Origin: Halorubrum trapanicum
GTDB lineage: Archaea; Halobacteriota; Halobacteria; Halobacteriales; Haloferacaceae
Direction of reading: 5' to 3'
Assembly: GCF_002355655.1 (NCBI RefSeq)
Contig: NZ_AP017569.1
Location: 868,001 to 932,000, forward strand
Length of the DNA stretch: 64,000 nucleotides
Shown here: positions 7,129-60,830 of the stretch, one piece after another
How the letters are laid out: every line of letters starts with the position of its first letter
How positions within the stretch are numbered: position 1 is the first letter of the stretch
Made by a program: the position numbers and the translations under genes
The notes under the pieces: generated by a model
Database searches by the model: none
What the model was told of the DNA's origin: nothing
Seen by the model: the letters and a program-made list of their open reading frames with translations, nothing else

Positions 7129-10100
7129 TCAGCCGAGCGCGGGGTACGCCGCGGCGACGCCGTCGCCGTCGACGCGCCAGCGGTCGGCGATCTCCCGGTA
7201 CGCGGCCGGGTCCGCGGCCGAGTCGTCCGGGACCGGTCCGGGCGACGACTCCCGCAGGGCCTCGGTCAGCACCTCCCGGTCGATCGAATCCGACCCGGCG
7301 GCCGTCCCCGCGAGCAGGTCGGCGAGCCGGTCGGCCGCCGAAACGACGGCCCGCGCGCCCTCGATCCGGTGAGCCAGATCGAGGGCCGCGGTCAGCCGGT
7401 CGGCCGCCGCGGCGGCGTCGCCGCGCTCGGCCTCCGCGGCGCCCAGCGCCGCCAACGCCTGCGCTTCGACCTGCGTGAACCCGCCCTCCCTCGCGGCGTC
7501 GACCGCGTCCGTCAGCGCCGCCGCAGCGGCGTCCCCGTCGCCGCGAGCGAGCGCCAGCCGCCCCCGGACGCGGTCCAGTTCCGCGAGGCGCTTCCGCCCC
7601 GCGTGGTCGTCGAGCAGCGACGCGGTCCGCTCGGTCCGCCGCTCCGCCTCCGGCGGGTCGCCGCGGTCGAGCGCCACCTCGGCGAGGATCGCGGTCACCA
7701 TCGCGCACCGCGTGTCGGCGCCGAGGCGGTCGAGGCGGTCGAGCGCGGCCGTCAGGAACCGCTCCGCCCGGTCGAGGTCGCCGGCGAGGTGCGCCGCGCT
7801 GCCGAGGTGGCTCAGCGCGAACGCCTCGTACATGTCCGAGCCGATCCGCTCGGCGATGTCCCGCGCCTCGGACGCGCGGGCGACCGCCTCGCCGACGGCG
7901 CCGCGCTGCTCTGCGACCGCCGCGAGGTTCAAAAGCGAGATGGCCTCGCGGTGTTCGTCGCCGACCGTCCGGTAGCCGTCGAGCGCGCGTCTCGCCGTCC
8001 GCTCGGCCGCGTCGAGGTCGCCGCGCCGCCGCAGCGCGACCGCGAGGTTCGCCCGGACGTTCGCCTCCCCGTGCGTGTCGTCGTAAGCGCGGAACAGATC
8101 GCCGGCCACTCGGTAGTGGTCGAGGACGGCGTCGGTCCCGTCGAGCCCGTCGAGCGCGTTCCCGACGTCCATCAGCGCCTTCGCCCGCGCGATGGGGTCG
8201 CCGGTCCGCGCGGCGATGGCGTACGCTCGCGAACCCGCCTCGTAGGCCTCCTCGTAGTCGCCGTCGAAGTGCGCCGCCTGTGCCCGGCCCCGGACCGCCG
8301 CCGCGAGCCCGCCGCGGTCGCCCGCGGCCGCGAACAGCTCCTCGGCCCGCTCGTACCGCTCGCGCGCCGCGTCGTACTCGCCGCGCCGCCGCGCCACGTC
8401 GCCGTACCCGCGCTGCCGCTCGGCGGCGCCCGCCTCGTCGACCGGCCGCCACGCGTCCAGCGCCGCCGTCGCGCCGTCGAGGTCGCCGGCCTCGACGTAC
8501 ATCCGCGCCACCCACTCCGGCGGCCGGTCGCGCAGGTCGTCCGGGCACGCGTCCGGGAGGTCGATCCACGCGTACCGGACGCGCCCGTACAGCGGCGCGA
8601 GACGGGGGTAACGGCGCCCGACGCCGTACACCGCACGGACCGTCTCGGCCGCCCACGCGCCCGGGGCGCGCTCGATTCGGGCCACCGTCGGCGCGTCCCC
8701 GCCGACGGCGCGGCGGATCCGCGAGCGGCGCGCGGGGTCGTCCGCGAGCGCGAGCACCCGCGAGACGGCCCGCCCCACGCGTCTGGCGACGACCGGCGCC
8801 GGCTCCCGCTCGACGAGCCGCTCCAAGAACAGCACCGACCACTCGTCGTGGACCGCGCGGTACTCCCCGTCGCCCGAGCGAACGAGGGCCGTCCCGACGA
8901 GGCGGTCGAGCGCACGGCGAACGCCGTCGACGGTCGGCGACGGGTCGCGGTCCGCCCCCTCGGCGTCGGTCCCCGCTCCCCCGGTCTCCGATCCGGCGAC
9001 CCCGTCCGGGCCGTCGACGAGCGCGTACGCCAGCGTGCGGACGTCGCCCACGCCGGCGACGTTGAGGAGGTTCACCAGCACCGCGACGTCCGCGGTCGGC
9101 GGCGGGCGGTTCCGGACCTCCCGGACCGCCTCCGCGACCGCCGCCTCCAGTCCGGACTCGGGGCCCGCGTCGTCGCGGCCGGCCGGGGCGTCGCTCGCGT
9201 CGGCCTCCGTCCCCGACGCGCCGCCGGCGCTCTCGCCCGCTTCGCCGACGACGCTCGCGCCGTCGCCGGTCGCGCGGACGAGGCGATGGACGAGCGCGAG
9301 CAGTTCGCCGACGCGCTCGTCGTCGGCGCGCCGCACGTCGTCGAGCAGCGCCGCCGGATCGGCCGCCGGCGCGGACCCCGTACAGTCGGCGACGTGGTCG
9401 ACGAACCGCTCCACCTCGCGCCCGTCGAGCCGCGGCATCCGCGCGGTCGCTATCTCCCGGCGGTAGCGGAGGTCGGCGGGCGAGAGCGGCAGTCCGTCGG
9501 GGTCGTCGTACGGCTCCTCGCGGGCGTCGAACAGGAAGGACACGTCGTCGCGGTCGGCCAGTTCGCGGGCGACGCCGAACGCCTCCGCGACCCCCGGATC
9601 GACGGCGTCCTCCACGACGACGAGGTGGTGGCCGTCGCCCTCGGTGACGCGCTCGCGGAGCCGCTCCGTCGCCGAAAACGGGTCGCCGCCGTCGCCCGGT
9701 CGGTACGTCACCGGGCCGCGTCCCGACCGGTACCACTCGACCGCGACGCTCCGGCAGACGGTGCTCTTCCCGCTCCCCGGCGGGCCGACCAGCGCGTGGT
9801 CCGTCCCCTCGGCGAGTCCGTCGACGAGCAGCCCGGCGATCGAGCGTCGGTCGCCGTCGCGCACCGTCGTCCTGTCGAGGACGTACCCCGCGTCGACCTC
9901 CGGGAACGACGCCGTGGCGCGGAGCGGTCCGTACGGGTCCGGGTCGCCGGAGAGTCGCTCCTCGTCGACCGCGTGGAACCCCTGCGCCGAGAGCGCGCTC
10001 CGACCGCCGCCGCCCGAACCGATCCGCCCGAAGAGCTCGCCCGCGGCGCTCGATCCCCTCCCGGCCGCCTCGCCGTCGCGACCCGCCCGGTCGGACGCGT

Positions 10101-55918: not shown

Positions 55919-56140
55919 CTACTCGTCGAAGTCGGGGAGGTCGTCCGGCGCCTCGAAGTCGGCCTCCCAGTCGATGTACTCCTCCTTCAGCGTCTCGCAG
56001 ACGATCTGTCCGAGTTCGGTCAGGCCGGCGTTGATCGCGGAGACGGTCCCCCACGAATCGAGGTCCGGGTGGAGGTCGCGCTCCTTCCAGTCCTCGGGGA
56101 GCCCCGGCGCGTGGTAGCCGACGCGGTCGGCGAAGTCGTC
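55919..56140 (-). pseudogene. C-terminal 73 codons of a host gene split by the integrated element
   Basis: The minus strand encodes DDFADRVGYHAPGLPEDWKE through APDDLPDFDE and a TAG stop at 55919-55921. It has no start of its own. The missing N-terminal half lies 3 kb away at 59214-59449 in the same orientation. The two pieces together hold 458 nt, one short of the 459 nt of an intact 152-codon gene. The residue lost at the junction is a Trp that is present in the element-borne copy (FDFFW). Protein family of unknown function. Confidence 0.9.
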
Positions 56141-56155
56141 GTTTCTTAACTAGAC

Positions 56156-56171
56156 GACTCGTTGGTTATTC
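56156..56171. repeat. Left inverted repeat of the integrative element
   Basis: GACTCGTTGGTTATTC, 15 bp inside the left junction, matches the reverse complement of 59186-59201 at 15 of 16 positions. It is a probable recombinase-binding arm. Confidence 0.8.
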
Positions 56172-56178
56172 ACTGAAT

Positions 56179-56237
56179 CTATAAGTGCTACTCGACGTAT
56201 GATATGACAAGCACCCACTGATACGCGAAAGTGGGTG
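56179..56237 (+). promoter_or_regulatory. Integrase promoter with inverted repeat
   Basis: TCTATAAGT (56179-56187) is a TATA-like box. Downstream lies a perfect 8-bp inverted repeat CACCCACT (56212-56219) / AGTGGGTG (56230-56237) with a 10-bp spacer, just before the Shine-Dalgarno GGAGG at 56242-56246 and the ATG at 56256. It could be an operator or a leader hairpin that limits integrase expression. Confidence 0.55.
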
Positions 56238-56255
56238 TGGCGGAGGCTCCAACCT

Positions 56256-57653
56256 ATGACCGACACACCCGAAGAAAAGTACGCATCGATACAGCAAACC
56301 GTTTGGGGTGATGAGGACACCTTTGAGATTGACGGCTACGTTGATACTGGAAAATTAACCCAAGCCGAAGCCGAGCGGATCCAAGAGCTGTGTGACGCCT
56401 TTGACGGCGAGAAGCTTGACCGTCAGAACCACACCGAAAAGAAACAGTCCTTCGAGCCCGACAAGCGGAAGGACAAGAGCTATTCGACATTGTGGGGATG
56501 GATGTATCGCCTTTCGCGGATGGGGAGAGATCTAAAGAACGCTGATTTCACTGTGGACACGTTGACCGAAGCCGAAGCGGCGGATCTCAACGATTTGATG
56601 GAACGGGGCTACTACAAAGCAGAGGTGCCGAACTGTAACGGCATGAGCAAGGGGACTATCCGGACCTATCAGTTTGCTCTCCGCATTTTCTACCGATATC
56701 ACTCCGATCTCGGCGTTGACCCGGAGCACATAGCGATTTACAGCGAAGATGGTGATAGCTCCGTGGACCCCGACGATATGCTCACACGGGACGAAATAGA
56801 ACGGCTCAAAGACGCTGCGGACCACCCGCGTGACAAGATGATCCTGACGTTGCTCCTGTACACCGGGATGCGGAGCAACGCGCTCCGTACGCTCCGTGTG
56901 AAGGACGTAAAACACCTCAACGACGAGAATAAGACGGGCCGCTATCGCTTCAATCCCAGCGTGGACCACGGCCTGAAAGGTGCCGACGACAGGAACGGGT
57001 GGCGGCCACTCCTATTGGCCGAGGGGGCGGTTCGGCAGTGGGTGAATAATTACCACCCCGCAAGAGGAGATGCTGATTTTGAAGAGTGTTTCCTGATTAC
57101 TGGAAAACCGAACTACGGGAAGTCGAACCCAAGAAGCCCGGTCGGGAATAACTGTCTTCGGTACGTGTTGAACACGCTCCAAAATGAGACGGGCATCGAG
57201 AAGCCACTCAACCCGCACTCACTGCGTCACAACTTCGTGACGATCTGTAAGCGCGATTACGATATGGATAATGACACGATCAAGTGGTTGATTGGACACA
57301 CCAAAGACAGTCAGGTGATGGAAACAACCTACAGCCACCTGTCAGACATGGACTTTCGGGAGAAGGCCGAAGAAAAGGCCGGATTGATTGACGAAACCAG
57401 CCGGAGCACACTCACACCCAAGCAGTGTAGTTGTGGCGAGAAAGTCGCACCGACCGCGAAGGCGTGCCCAAACTGTGGGATGCTGTTCAGCCCCGACGCG
57501 CGGGCGGTTGAAGAGGAAACGGAACAGCAAGTCAAAGACACTTATAAAGAAGCAGGGAAGGCCGGCGATGTTCAAGCCATTGACGACGTTGACGAACTAC
57601 TCGAAAATCCCGCTGTCAAACAAGCACTAATTGAGAAGCTCCAAGAAGATTAG
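56256..57653 (+). CDS. Tyrosine recombinase/integrase with C-terminal zinc ribbon
   Basis: A 465-aa site-specific recombinase. The N-terminal ~170 residues are the core-binding helical domain (SYSTLWGWMYRLSRMGRDL). The catalytic residues are R206 (TGMRSNAL), H321-x2-R324 (HSLRHNF), H348 (IGHTKDS) and Y359 (TTYSHL). Residues 391-407 form a CxC/CxxC zinc ribbon (CSCGEK, ACPNCGM), an unusual tail that may contact DNA or a partner. Start ATG at 56256 has a good SD (GGAGG); an upstream in-frame ATG at 56235 lies in the hairpin. Base composition is AT-richer than the surrounding chromosome, showing foreign origin. All catalytic residues are intact. Confidence 0.94.
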   Translation: MTDTPEEKYASIQQTVWGDEDTFEIDGYVDTGKLTQAEAERIQELCDAFDGEKLDRQNHTEKKQSFEPDKRKDKSYSTLWGWMYRLSRMGRDLKNADFTVDTLTEAEAADLNDLMERGYYKAEVPNCNGMSKGTIRTYQFALRIFYRYHSDLGVDPEHIAIYSEDGDSSVDPDDMLTRDEIERLKDAADHPRDKMILTLLLYTGMRSNALRTLRVKDVKHLNDENKTGRYRFNPSVDHGLKGADDRNGWRPLLLAEGAVRQWVNNYHPARGDADFEECFLITGKPNYGKSNPRSPVGNNCLRYVLNTLQNETGIEKPLNPHSLRHNFVTICKRDYDMDNDTIKWLIGHTKDSQVMETTYSHLSDMDFREKAEEKAGLIDETSRSTLTPKQCSCGEKVAPTAKACPNCGMLFSPDARAVEEETEQQVKDTYKEAGKAGDVQAIDDVDELLENPAVKQALIEKLQED

Positions 57654-57666
57654 TCGGGCCAGTCAC

Positions 57667-57672
57667 TTTTTT
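57667..57672 (+). terminator. Oligo-T tract after the integrase
   Basis: TTTTTT begins 14 bp after the integrase stop in a low-GC setting, the form of an archaeal U-tract terminator. No stem is needed in archaea, and none is evident. Confidence 0.45.
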
Positions 57673-57722
57673 AGCGTCGTACAGGCTCTGTTCTCTCTGT
57701 TCGTGTAGTTACTCATACTTAG

Positions 57723-57730
57723 ACATATTT
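57723..57730. repeat. 8-bp target-site duplication, left (ACATATTT)
   Basis: ACATATTT directly precedes the GG of the left terminal inverted repeat and is repeated exactly at 58500-58507 after the right one. Confidence 0.88.
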
Positions 57731-57878
57731 GGCTCTGTTGAAATCCTATTCTTCAGACATATAATCAAATGAAACGACTGGTCGCTGAGGGTGCGTACAA
57801 ACACCTCCGTGAGGGCCCTCTTCGCCACAGCATTTACGTCGGACGGGAGCGTAACAGGTCCCCGATTCGTTAAGAACC

Positions 57879-58187
57879 ATGAAGATTCAAGAGCTCCCTG
57901 AGTGGACCGAAACAGAATTCGCGTTCCCGATCACGAGAGAATCGATCATCGATCAGGCTGGTGACACCGAGATTCACGCACCTGACGAAGAGGATTCAGA
58001 GACACTCTCTGCCATTCTTGAACGGAGTGGTAAAGAGACGTATCAGTCTCCAGATCACTTGCTTACTGCCATTCGTGGTAATGTGAGTGACGAGTATATC
58101 GGCCGGAAATACTACGATGACCGATCTGGAGATCGGAGCGGCCCTGAAAGCGACACGAGACAAGAAACGATTGATAGGTCGTTTTAA
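57879..58187 (+). CDS. DUF5789-family small protein (cargo of the IS6-like insertion)
   Basis: A 102-aa protein: MKIQELPEWTETEFAFPITRESIIDQAGDTEI at the N-terminus, then GKETYQSPDHLLTAIRGNVSDEYIGRKYYDDRSG, the pattern of the haloarchaeal DUF5789 family (function unknown). The last ~20 residues (SGPESDTRQETIDRSF) look non-homologous and may come from fusion to flanking DNA. It has its own ATG after CGTTAAGAACC. A 34-codon open frame just upstream (57769-57873) ends 5 bp before it and is probably a fragment. Its place inside a transposable unit implies horizontal movement. Confidence 0.75.
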   Translation: MKIQELPEWTETEFAFPITRESIIDQAGDTEIHAPDEEDSETLSAILERSGKETYQSPDHLLTAIRGNVSDEYIGRKYYDDRSGDRSGPESDTRQETIDRSF

Positions 58188-58200
58188 CTGGAATTAGGCG

Positions 58201-58358
58201 CTAAATCCCCTTCCTCAAGGAGCAACACAGGGAGCAAAGCGACCGAGTAGCGTTAACGAGAGCAAGCTCTCGTTCGCACATCAGAAATCTGCGATTTCTG
58301 AGGACACCCTCAAGGAGCGAACGGCTTCAGCCGTGAGCGAGTAGGGTGGGGTAGTTCA
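58201..58358 (+). mobile_element. Orphan IS200/IS605 (TnpB-type) right end, possible omega-RNA remnant
   Basis: CTAAATCCCCTTCCTCAAGGAGC, later followed by GAACGGCTTCAGCCGTGAGC with a perfect 6-bp hairpin (58321-58326/58329-58334) and a terminal GAGTAGGGTGGGGTAGTTCAC (in two parts: GAGTAGGGTGG, GGTAGTTCAC), looks like the 3' end of haloarchaeal IS1341/TnpB elements, where the omega-RNA is encoded. No tnpB or tnpA is present. CCTCAAGGAGC occurs twice (58213-58223, 58308-58318). The 95-bp stretch between holds two perfect hairpins: AACGAGAGC/GCTCTCGTT (58255-58274) and CAGAAATC/GATTTCTG (58282-58300). The identification is from memory of such ends, not from a search. Confidence 0.55.
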
Positions 58359-58499
58359 CTACTTCTTGAGATATCACAGCGAGAGCGAGGGGGCGAACCC
58401 AGAGTCGCAGATTCTACAGATCCGCACCGGTACGTGAGTCCCCTGTATTGACCGCAACCGGGTCAGAATATATCACCTGCTGAGGATTTCAACAGAACC

Positions 58500-58507
58500 A
58501 CATATTT
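58500..58507. repeat. 8-bp target-site duplication, right (ACATATTT)
   Basis: Exact copy of 57723-57730, directly after the right terminal inverted repeat of the 769-bp insertion. Confidence 0.88.
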
Positions 58508-58727
58508 GTGAATACAGTCGTAGCGGGATTGGTGGTAGGTGGGCTTACCGATGTAGTCGCTGTTGTTTACTTTGAGCTGATTTATTTTGGAATAAAAACT
58601 CCATGCGCAGTCCGACAGATACACCGGTATTTGATTCAAACTAAGAGTATCGTTGTGTCAAAGAAAGGTTTGGGCCTTGCTGTCGCTATGGTAGTGAAGT
58701 TATGTCGCCGCCGGTCAAACCTTAGGT

Positions 58728-59186
58728 ATGACGTTGAACGTACCAACACCCGATCCGCCCGAGCTTGAAGAGATTGACCCGAATGAATACGACGATGCCG
58801 ATGTAGTAGGCGATACGGACTATAAGCGCGAAGAGATAGAGGAATTACTTCGACAGGGCGCGTGGGAAGACGCGTTCACGGAGTGGGCGGAGGACACGGA
58901 TCTTGATGAGGAAGAATTTGAGATCCTGACCGACTTGGACATGATACAGCAGTTTGACTTTTTTTGGGATGCCTTCGCCGAGCGCGTCGGCTACCACGCG
59001 CCGGGAATCCCGGAGGACTGGAAGGAACGAAACTACCACCCGGACTTGGATAGTTGGGGAACCACTTCAGGAATCAATGCTGCGCTCACAGAACTGGGGC
59101 AAACCGCGTGTGATGTACTAAAAAACGAGTATATTGACTGGGAGAGCGAATATGAAGCGCCGGACGATCTCCCCGACTTCGATTAG
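58728..59186 (+). CDS. Element-borne full-length homologue of the interrupted host gene, 152 aa
   Basis: A 152-aa acidic protein: PPELEEIDPNEYDDADVVGD at the N-terminus, LLRQGAWEDAFTEWAEDTDLDEE, FDFFWDAFAERVGYHAPGIPEDWKE and HPDLDSWGT..INA.LTELGQ at the C-terminal half. By eye about three quarters of the C-terminal 72 residues equal those of the split host gene (55919-56140), and the intact lengths are the same. Its coding DNA is AT-richer than the host copy, so it has evolved elsewhere. It is on the opposite strand to the host gene and its stop overlaps the right inverted repeat. It probably restores the function lost on integration. Biochemical function unknown. Confidence 0.88.
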   Translation: MTLNVPTPDPPELEEIDPNEYDDADVVGDTDYKREEIEELLRQGAWEDAFTEWAEDTDLDEEEFEILTDLDMIQQFDFFWDAFAERVGYHAPGIPEDWKERNYHPDLDSWGTTSGINAALTELGQTACDVLKNEYIDWESEYEAPDDLPDFD

Positions 59187-59201
59187 AATAACAAACGAGT
59201 C
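59186..59201. repeat. Right inverted repeat of the integrative element
   Basis: GAATAACAAACGAGTC, starting in the stop codon of the gene-copy. It is part of a larger imperfect palindrome, AATAACAAA-CGAGTCA-TTTGGTTATT (59187-59212): two inverted arms around a 7-bp centre, the shape of a tyrosine-recombinase core site. Confidence 0.78.
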
Positions 59202-59213
59202 ATTTGGTTATTA

Positions 59214-59449
59214 CAAAAGAAGTCGAAGCGGGAGACGAGGTCCAGATCGACCGCGATCGCCCAGTCGGACTCGTCCATGTCGGTCGCGTCGGCCCACTCG
59301 GAGAACGCGTCCTCCCACGCCCCCTCGCGGAGGAGCGCCTCCAGGTCGTCGCGGCGGTACTCCCCGCCCGCCACCTCGGCGTCCTCGTACTCGTTCGGGT
59401 CGACGGCGGCGAGTTCGGGGGGCTCCGGCGGCTCGACGTCGAGTGACAT
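59214..59449 (-). pseudogene. N-terminal 78 codons of the split host gene
   Basis: From the ATG at 59449 the minus strand reads MSLDVEPPEPPELAAVDP... through GAWEDAFSEWADATDMDESD to RFDFF. It then runs into element DNA after two bases of codon 79 and terminates a few codons on (CNNQMTRLLF-stop). The start and its upstream region remain, so a truncated 88-aa product could still be made. Its C-terminal half is at 55919-56140. An in-frame upstream ATG (59476) would add a basic MARRRPPPG and is less likely. Confidence 0.9.
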
Positions 59450-59990: not shown

Positions 59991-60013
59991 CGCACCCGAA
60001 TATCGTCGAACGG

Positions 60014-60316
60014 ACTAGGTCGGGCGGTTAGGCCCCGCTCGTTACCCGTGAGGCAGTCTTCAGCGGGGACCGAACAGCGGGCACGTCCGGTCAGACCGGC
60101 GCGGGCCCCGAGAGCCAACGTGGAAGCCTCGTCCGCCGGGGACAGCGGTCCGCGGCGCCCGCTCGCAGGAGCGGTCCGTCGCGGTTCGTCGGCGGCACTG
60201 GGTCAGGCGCGGAAGCGAGCAGCCCACCGCCGGACGCCAGTCGCTCGTCGGGTCGCGGGGTGGAGGAGGCAATCGGGATACCCCGTGCCGGAACGCCGGG
60301 CTACCCCGCCTGTCCG
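60014..60316 (+). ncRNA. ffs: Signal recognition particle (7S) RNA
   Basis: About 303 nt. The 5' Alu-type part (AGGTCGGGCGGTTAGGCC, then CGTTACCCGTGAGGCAG) pairs with the 3' end CCCCGCCTGTCC. The S-domain helix 8 carries the invariant SRP54 site: GGTCAGG (60201-60207), GGAA tetraloop (60211-60214) and AGCAGCC (60218-60224). The GTGGAAGCC-type tetraloop stretch near 60121 fits helix 6, the SRP19 contact. There is no coding potential and a promoter lies just upstream. Ends are judged from pairing and may shift by a few bases. It acts with SRP54 and SRP19 in targeting membrane proteins. Confidence 0.88.
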
Positions 60317-60400
60317 CCATTCATACCGATTCTCGTTGGCTGAGTGGTGACGCTGTGACGCTGCGGTCGCCGGCGTGAGCGTCGACACCGCGAGCGTTTG

Positions 60401-60594
60401 TTTATAAATGGATGCTGTCTGCTCGGGAGCCTACTTATAAATAATCGATGACGGATCGGCGACGGACGCCACCGAAGCCCCAGCCGCTCGTTTATAAGCT
60501 CTTGCTGCCGGATCGGCGACGGACGCCACCGAAGCCCCAGCCGCTCGTTTATAAGCTCTTGCTGCCGGATCGGCGACGGACGCCACCGAAGCCC
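60401..60594. repeat. TATA-bearing array, structured element copy 3
   Basis: Boxes TTTATAAA 60401, CTTATAAA 60434, TTTATAAG 60491 and TTTATAAG 60548. The last three are exactly 57 bp apart. Units carry GCTCTTGCTGCCGGATCGGC, GACGGACGCC and ACCGAAGCCCCAGCCGCTCG, different from copy 2 except for the box and the GCCcCAGCCG block, so period and box are conserved while the filler is not. Confidence 0.83.
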
Positions 60595-60830
60595 CAGCCG
60601 CGAGGCCGGCGTACGCTCGCTGCGCTCCTCGTCACTCGCTCCGCTCGTTCCTGCGGTGCTTGCGTCGCCTACGCCGGCCTCGCGGCTGCCCCTTCAAGTC
60701 CTCCCCGCACGGCGACCGCACCTCACGCCTCCCCAGCCTCGTCGCTGGCGGCTGACGCCGCCAGCGACTCCCTCGCGCGTGCTGCTCGCGGCCTACCGGC
60801 CGCCCGCAGGCACGCGCCACGGCGACCGCA
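60595..60830. repeat. Structured element copy 3, folded body
   Basis: Stem 1 is a perfect 19-bp pairing of 60595-60613 with 60670-60688 (core CAGCCGCGAGG plus CCGGCGTA, absent from the other copies). Stem 2: GTCGCTGGCGGC 60741-60752 with GCCGCCAGCGAC 60757-60768, loop TGAC. Stem 3: GCGGCC 60788-60793 with GGCCGC 60798-60803, loop TACC, inside GCGCGTGC 60775-60782 / GCACGCGC 60810-60817. Conserved linkers: CTGCCCCTTCAAGTCC and CCTCCCCAGCCTC. It ends about 20 bp from the stop codon of the convergent GNAT gene. Confidence 0.8.

Follow-up and report, generated by a model that had tools for sequence, protein, structure and literature searches.

A Halorubrum integrative element splits a conserved protein-coding gene and carries a complete inverted copy of it

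How can an integrative element break a conserved gene in its middle and still be tolerated by the host? Such elements are thought to be harmless because they use sites with restorable ends. Here, a 64,000-nt stretch of the Halorubrum trapanicum genome (contig NZ_AP017569.1, positions 868,001 to 932,000; hereafter the window) contains a minus-strand host gene of 152 codons in which a 3073-bp tyrosine-recombinase element is inserted behind codon 78, breaking the gene and carrying a whole spare for it. Related elements treat another, unrelated target, the gene for a DUF309 protein, in this way too. On the basis of sequence comparison, we consider it quite likely that the element integrates site-specifically and that, in its basic form, it consists of a tyrosine integrase gene and a complete replacement for the core gene that it enters; it is best read as a putative whole-gene version of classical target restoration.

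The split was proposed in a first-pass annotation of the window, and it was confirmed by the joinable host halves and by an empty site. Several frame-consistent ways of joining the halves exist, each giving about 152 codons in one reading frame. The sister genome G022 carries an intact 152-codon gene between contiguous flanks (locus L018), so the halves are indeed found joined in a related genome. Window bases 56140 and 59214 correspond to bases 1716 and 1718 of L018, and the flanks are 95% and 84% identical. The N-terminal half now reads into element sequence and meets a stop soon after, and the host frame is not completed by the element. The insertion point lies in the FDFFWD codons; residues D77-F78-F79-W80-D81 were invariant in an alignment of 21 sequences.

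Of 391 genomes that sample the haloarchaeal class, 370 have a homologue of the target. Within the genus, the gene is single-copy in 49 of the 52 genomes searched, absent from one incomplete genome, and split and copied in the window genome and in Halorubrum yunnanense Q85 (G051). The target is a class-wide gene of housekeeping type. It matched no family in Pfam, NCBIfam, PHROG or PADLOC, and no solved structure resembled it by sequence or by predicted fold (AF2 pLDDT 81.5).

The intact 152-aa homologue inside the element was described by the first-pass annotation as inverted, diverged and AT-richer in its codons, and each of these descriptions was borne out. It is 78% identical to the host protein in the C-terminal half and 52-55% in the N-terminal half, and its GC content at third codon positions is 0.61, vs 0.94 for the native gene of G022. 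Comparison with the copy in H. yunnanense gave a nonsynonymous divergence (dN) of 0.034 and a synonymous divergence (dS) of 0.68 (dN/dS ~0.05), which argues that the copy is kept functional under strong purifying selection. Residues that do not vary in the aligned native homologues are retained in the copy as well. In a 54-sequence tree, the copy was nested among native genes of other genera, including Haloplanus and Halobellus (98/96 support), and the G022 orthologue of the broken host gene was placed with Halorubrum; the tree thus indicates a foreign origin of the copy. These results suggest that the function of the target is preserved by the intact, selected copy, and they support the earlier proposals that the element compensates for the damage it causes and that the host allele has been swapped for its own.

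The sequence of the copy at the insertion site bears on another explanation, in which the copy is an attachment site that the integrase cannot cut and that blocks re-integration or competitors, the function of the gene being secondary. Most synonymous positions of the site are changed in the copy (TTTGACTTTTTTTGGGAT vs TTCGACTTCTTCTGGGAC), and DUF309 copies do likewise. However, divergence at the site does not exceed the AT-rich background of the copy (ranks 93/143 and 38/143 among ten-codon windows), so that recoding to escape the integrase was not distinguishable from general AT richness, and any insertion already destroys the site. We regard this immunity explanation as improbable.

In H. 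yunnanense Q85, an element of the same kind, recovered over two contigs, occupies the same codons of the same gene, and its integrase is broken by a 0.5-kb insertion. The left host-element junction reads GTTTC in the window and TCAGT in G051, and the right side is trimmed differently. The dS of flanking genes is 0.14-0.18 between the window and G022 and ~0.24 between the window and G051, the latter unlike that of the copy (0.68) or of the first part of the integrase (0.12). Because the junctions differ and G022, which is closer to the window genome than G051, has an empty site, these comparisons favour separate insertions in the two genomes. The first-pass annotation had suggested looking elsewhere for a copy tied to this integrase; the pairing is present in H. 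yunnanense, and related integrases are paired with DUF309.

The DUF309 cases came from 58 neighbourhoods of related integrases, which were screened for a nearby homologue of the flanking gene. Four of them (L084, L113, L118 and L141) showed a split gene together with an inverted copy, the gene in each case encoding a DUF309 protein (PF03745; structure 2ijq). Two further DUF309 loci, L210 and L211+L212, are 19- and 28-kb versions, and the six loci are distributed over four genera and two families. The order is always the same: the host 3' half (reverse), the integrase, any cargo, the full copy and the host 5' half (reverse), with integrase and copy both in forward orientation. The gene is broken at or within a few codons of one place (HD/CFEDEWYNYG), and in 7/7 examined loci of this group its 3' half abuts the integrase. 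Among the 391 genomes, 389 have DUF309, and in each of the six affected genomes the element copy is the sole full-length orthologue. Three of the elements, of 1975-2301 bp, consist of integrase and copy only; the L118 integrase is a pseudogene. The integrases of the DUF309 loci form a clade that lies well apart from the window integrase in the integrase tree.

The combination of split and copy, recurring in H. yunnanense and with the other target in six further genomes, is not due to chance. This recurrence bears on the possibility that the copy is ordinary cargo or a paralogue, the element having hit a homologous gene by accident and the pairing having no function. Homologues of the target do move: haloarchaea have a second, 35-47% identical paralogue family that is partly plasmid-borne, and plasmid records contained, for the target, only 35-46% identical paralogues, on 21 plasmids that were all typed as non-mobilizable, and two DUF309 genes. 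Nevertheless, the basic elements hold nothing besides integrase and copy, none of the six paralogue loci checked has the integrase beside it, and two different integrase clades each carry a copy of exactly the gene that they interrupt. Accidental cargo is therefore highly unlikely.

The two large DUF309 elements carry homologues of defence proteins: DrmD-like and PbeA-like proteins, a GajB-like UvrD helicase, PD-(D/E)XK nucleases and an AAA ATPase. DUF309 looks like a haloarchaeal defence-island hotspot (L210, L211 and L212). The presence of defence-like genes in some large elements is the one observation in favour of a hostile takeover, in which an antiviral or regulatory target is exchanged for a defective or altered copy and the host is thereby disarmed, and it is not direct. 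The first-pass annotation had entertained such a takeover device, and the idea gained no support: neither target nor copy matched the PADLOC defence library, the target has no Pfam, NCBIfam or fold match, and its class-wide core distribution, together with the strong purifying selection and conserved invariant residues of the copy, speaks against it. We consider takeover the least probable of the alternatives.

Remnants of DUF309 elements were also detected. In G382, G124 (Haloplanus ruber) and G154, the inverted full copy is kept with no integrase nearby, and the host halves are reduced, contain stops or are missing. In G404, G278 and G318, the full copy follows a truncated 5' half in the same orientation. 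The remnants bear on a reversible switch, in which precise excision under some condition restores the host gene, as in developmental intervening elements or active lysogeny. In favour of a switch, the window integrase is intact and the split halves keep high identity to the intact gene. In contrast, an intact substitute is always present, the H. yunnanense integrase is broken, the host halves of the remnants have decayed or gone while the copy stays intact, and no gene resembling an excisionase was seen in the 2-kb elements. A switch is very unlikely.

The favoured insert-and-replace reading would proceed as follows. The integrase, presumably that of the element itself, would insert the element into the highly conserved FDFFWD stretch and thereby destroy the host allele. 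The promoter and inverted copy of the element would then supply the function, the copy being expressed and functional, and the host would thus tolerate the insertion. With the resident gene broken and the substitute the only copy in the cell, imprecise loss of the element would be costly, and loss of the copy itself probably deleterious. The substitute can persist after loss of the integrase, resulting in a permanent allele replacement.

Several observations weigh against this reading. In the draft genome G285 (L216, G285:C34), DUF309 is split by ~1.4 kb and no full-length copy was found, so that this gene may be less than strictly essential. No core sequence that would clearly mark the exact crossover is common to both junctions and the empty site of the window element. 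A search for a direct repeat (attL/attR core) common to both junctions likewise found none, only inverted 25-bp terminal repeats; the integration core may be very short, decayed or heterologous. The window element carries an insertion sequence (IS)-like insertion and the H. yunnanense integrase is disrupted, and both elements may no longer be mobile. Finally, some small probability remains for a single ancestral insertion that was inherited vertically and then precisely lost in G022.

Relatives in the integrase family showed other arrangements. At L081, where the target is a GFO/IDH-type dehydrogenase gene, the element gives only a new 3' end. For a GST-like target, an inverted full copy was considered and rejected: 9-17 kb away, the same strand carries a second 3' part, which fits classical 3' replacement. 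For an FAD-protein target, no second copy was found on a contig that ends nearby. Other integrase clades abut sdhA, RPA, BolA and pop5 genes, as named from reading translations. These abutting genes and the 3'-end restoration in relatives show that protein-coding genes are used across the family, with whole-gene replacement as one of the solutions adopted. The first-pass annotation called a complete carried copy of a protein target much less usual, and for whole copies this is fair; restoration of the 3' end of protein targets is known, including in the same integrase family (L081 and probably the GST-like case). A second same-family integrase of the window genome (L087, G000:C1:2293174-2294130) lies directly against the 5' end of the gene for a succinate dehydrogenase flavoprotein, as do relatives at L085, L117 and L119.

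Bacterial elements at icd, guaA and prfC restore the 3' (or 5') end of a protein-coding target. The window element resembles them in its tyrosine recombinase, in its site-specific insertion into a conserved protein gene and in the apparent preservation of function by element sequence. It differs from them in that the insertion is mid-gene, nothing is stitched, the whole gene is supplied in inverted orientation with its own promoter, and both host halves are abandoned. The elements of skin/sigK and nifD and the Listeria comK prophage are likewise recombinase elements that split a protein-coding gene, but they are excised to restore it and carry no substitute. In synthetic 'cleave and rescue' gene drives, one unit both disrupts a core gene and carries its diverged rescue copy. 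The likeness to these drives is an analogy only, as the present element is natural and uses site-specific insertion rather than a trans-acting nuclease, with no bias of sexual inheritance. Among archaeal elements, the known thaumarchaeal ones in protein genes are located in 3'-distal regions (PMC6563490). A review of archaeal tyrosine recombinases lists mainly tRNA targets and describes the Halobacteria-restricted pR1SE, HSTV2 and SNJ2 groups (PMC8371274); the window integrase is likewise a haloarchaeal tyrosine recombinase. The integrase of the tailed virus HRTV-27 is 45% identical to it over 72% of the protein. A literature search, which did not extend to preprints and most subscription papers, turned up no earlier account of an element that inserts mid-gene and brings a whole inverted substitute.

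Since sister elements treat another core gene, unrelated to the first, in the same way, breaking a gene and supplying the spare appears to be a repeated strategy rather than an accident. It offers a directly testable route by which foreign alleles could take the place of core genes with no need for homologous recombination, and by which an element could become indispensable. In the DUF309 elements, clusters of candidate antiviral genes are attached to the same anchor. Two haloarchaeal proteins that are class-wide and uncharacterised are also marked as functions worth preserving. We see about an even chance that these loci belong to a general class of natural, selfish 'insert-and-rescue' elements. 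These would be minimal units of two genes that break a core gene, become the only source of it, are hard to lose (entrenchment or addiction) and spread foreign core alleles across genera, the larger ones anchoring defence islands.

The features of the window locus are listed below. Without the nested insertion and one duplicated octamer, the element measures 2296 bp and contains only the integrase and the replacement gene. This basic element has no structural or replication virus genes, so it is not classed as a provirus; the copy was not found in phage records or viral contigs, and viral-contig scans returned no relatives of copy or integrase. The imperfect inverted repeats at its ends were equalled in 0/2000 shuffles. 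The integrase is intact and is not split by integration, unlike those of SSV-type suicidal integrase elements; its R, HxxR, H and Y motifs are readable in the translation, and the C-terminus has a zinc-ribbon-like Cys cluster. A TATA-like AAGTTATG, kept between the window element and H. yunnanense, lies ~27 bp before the ATG of the copy. The stretch 5' of the copy is probably its own promoter, with a spacing that fits leaderless haloarchaeal genes. The nested insertion is a non-autonomous IS6-like sequence that arrived later than the element.

Features of the split-gene locus (window coordinates)
Feature	Position	Strand	Remarks
Host gene, 3' half (74 codons incl. stop)	55919-56140	-	100% aa identity to G022
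Integrated element	56141-59213		3073 bp; empty site in G022
Left terminal inverted repeat	56147-56171		TAACTAGACGACTCGTTGGTTATTC; 25 bp, 21/25 match to right end; conserved in H. yunnanense
Tyrosine recombinase (integrase), 465 aa	56256-57653	+	PF00589 E=1.5e-15; phrog_1 integrase 4e-30
Target duplication of nested insertion, 8 bp	57723-57730 and 58500-58507		ACATATTT
Nested IS-like insertion	57731-58499		769 bp; 17-bp terminal repeats GGYTCTGTTGAAATCCT; no transposase
DUF5789 gene inside nested insertion	57879-58187	+	PF19102 E=4e-13; outside basic element
Probable promoter of copy	58690-58727	+	GTAGTGAAGTTATG; conserved with H. yunnanense; putative function
Full-length replacement copy, 152 aa	58728-59186	+	Sole full-length homologue in genome
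Right terminal inverted repeat	59186-59210		Complement of TAACCAAATGACTCGTTTGTTATTC; starts at last base of the copy's stop codon
Host gene, 5' half (codons 1-78)	59214-59449	-	94% aa identity to intact G022 gene (L018)

The 0.5-kb insertion in the H. yunnanense integrase (L097 ~7580-8067, G051:C73) has IS200/IS605-like hairpin ends. In Halorubrum laminariae (G018, L005) and in G041 (L006), the target lies at or adjoining its native aldo/keto-reductase locus with an allele outside the main Halorubrum clade, which suggests allele replacement without an element. Just past the split gene, the window contains an archaeal SRP RNA gene (RF01857) at 60008-60319. Downstream of it, at 60452-60601, is a perfect 57-bp tandem repeat of 2.6 copies with TTTATAA promoter-like motifs.

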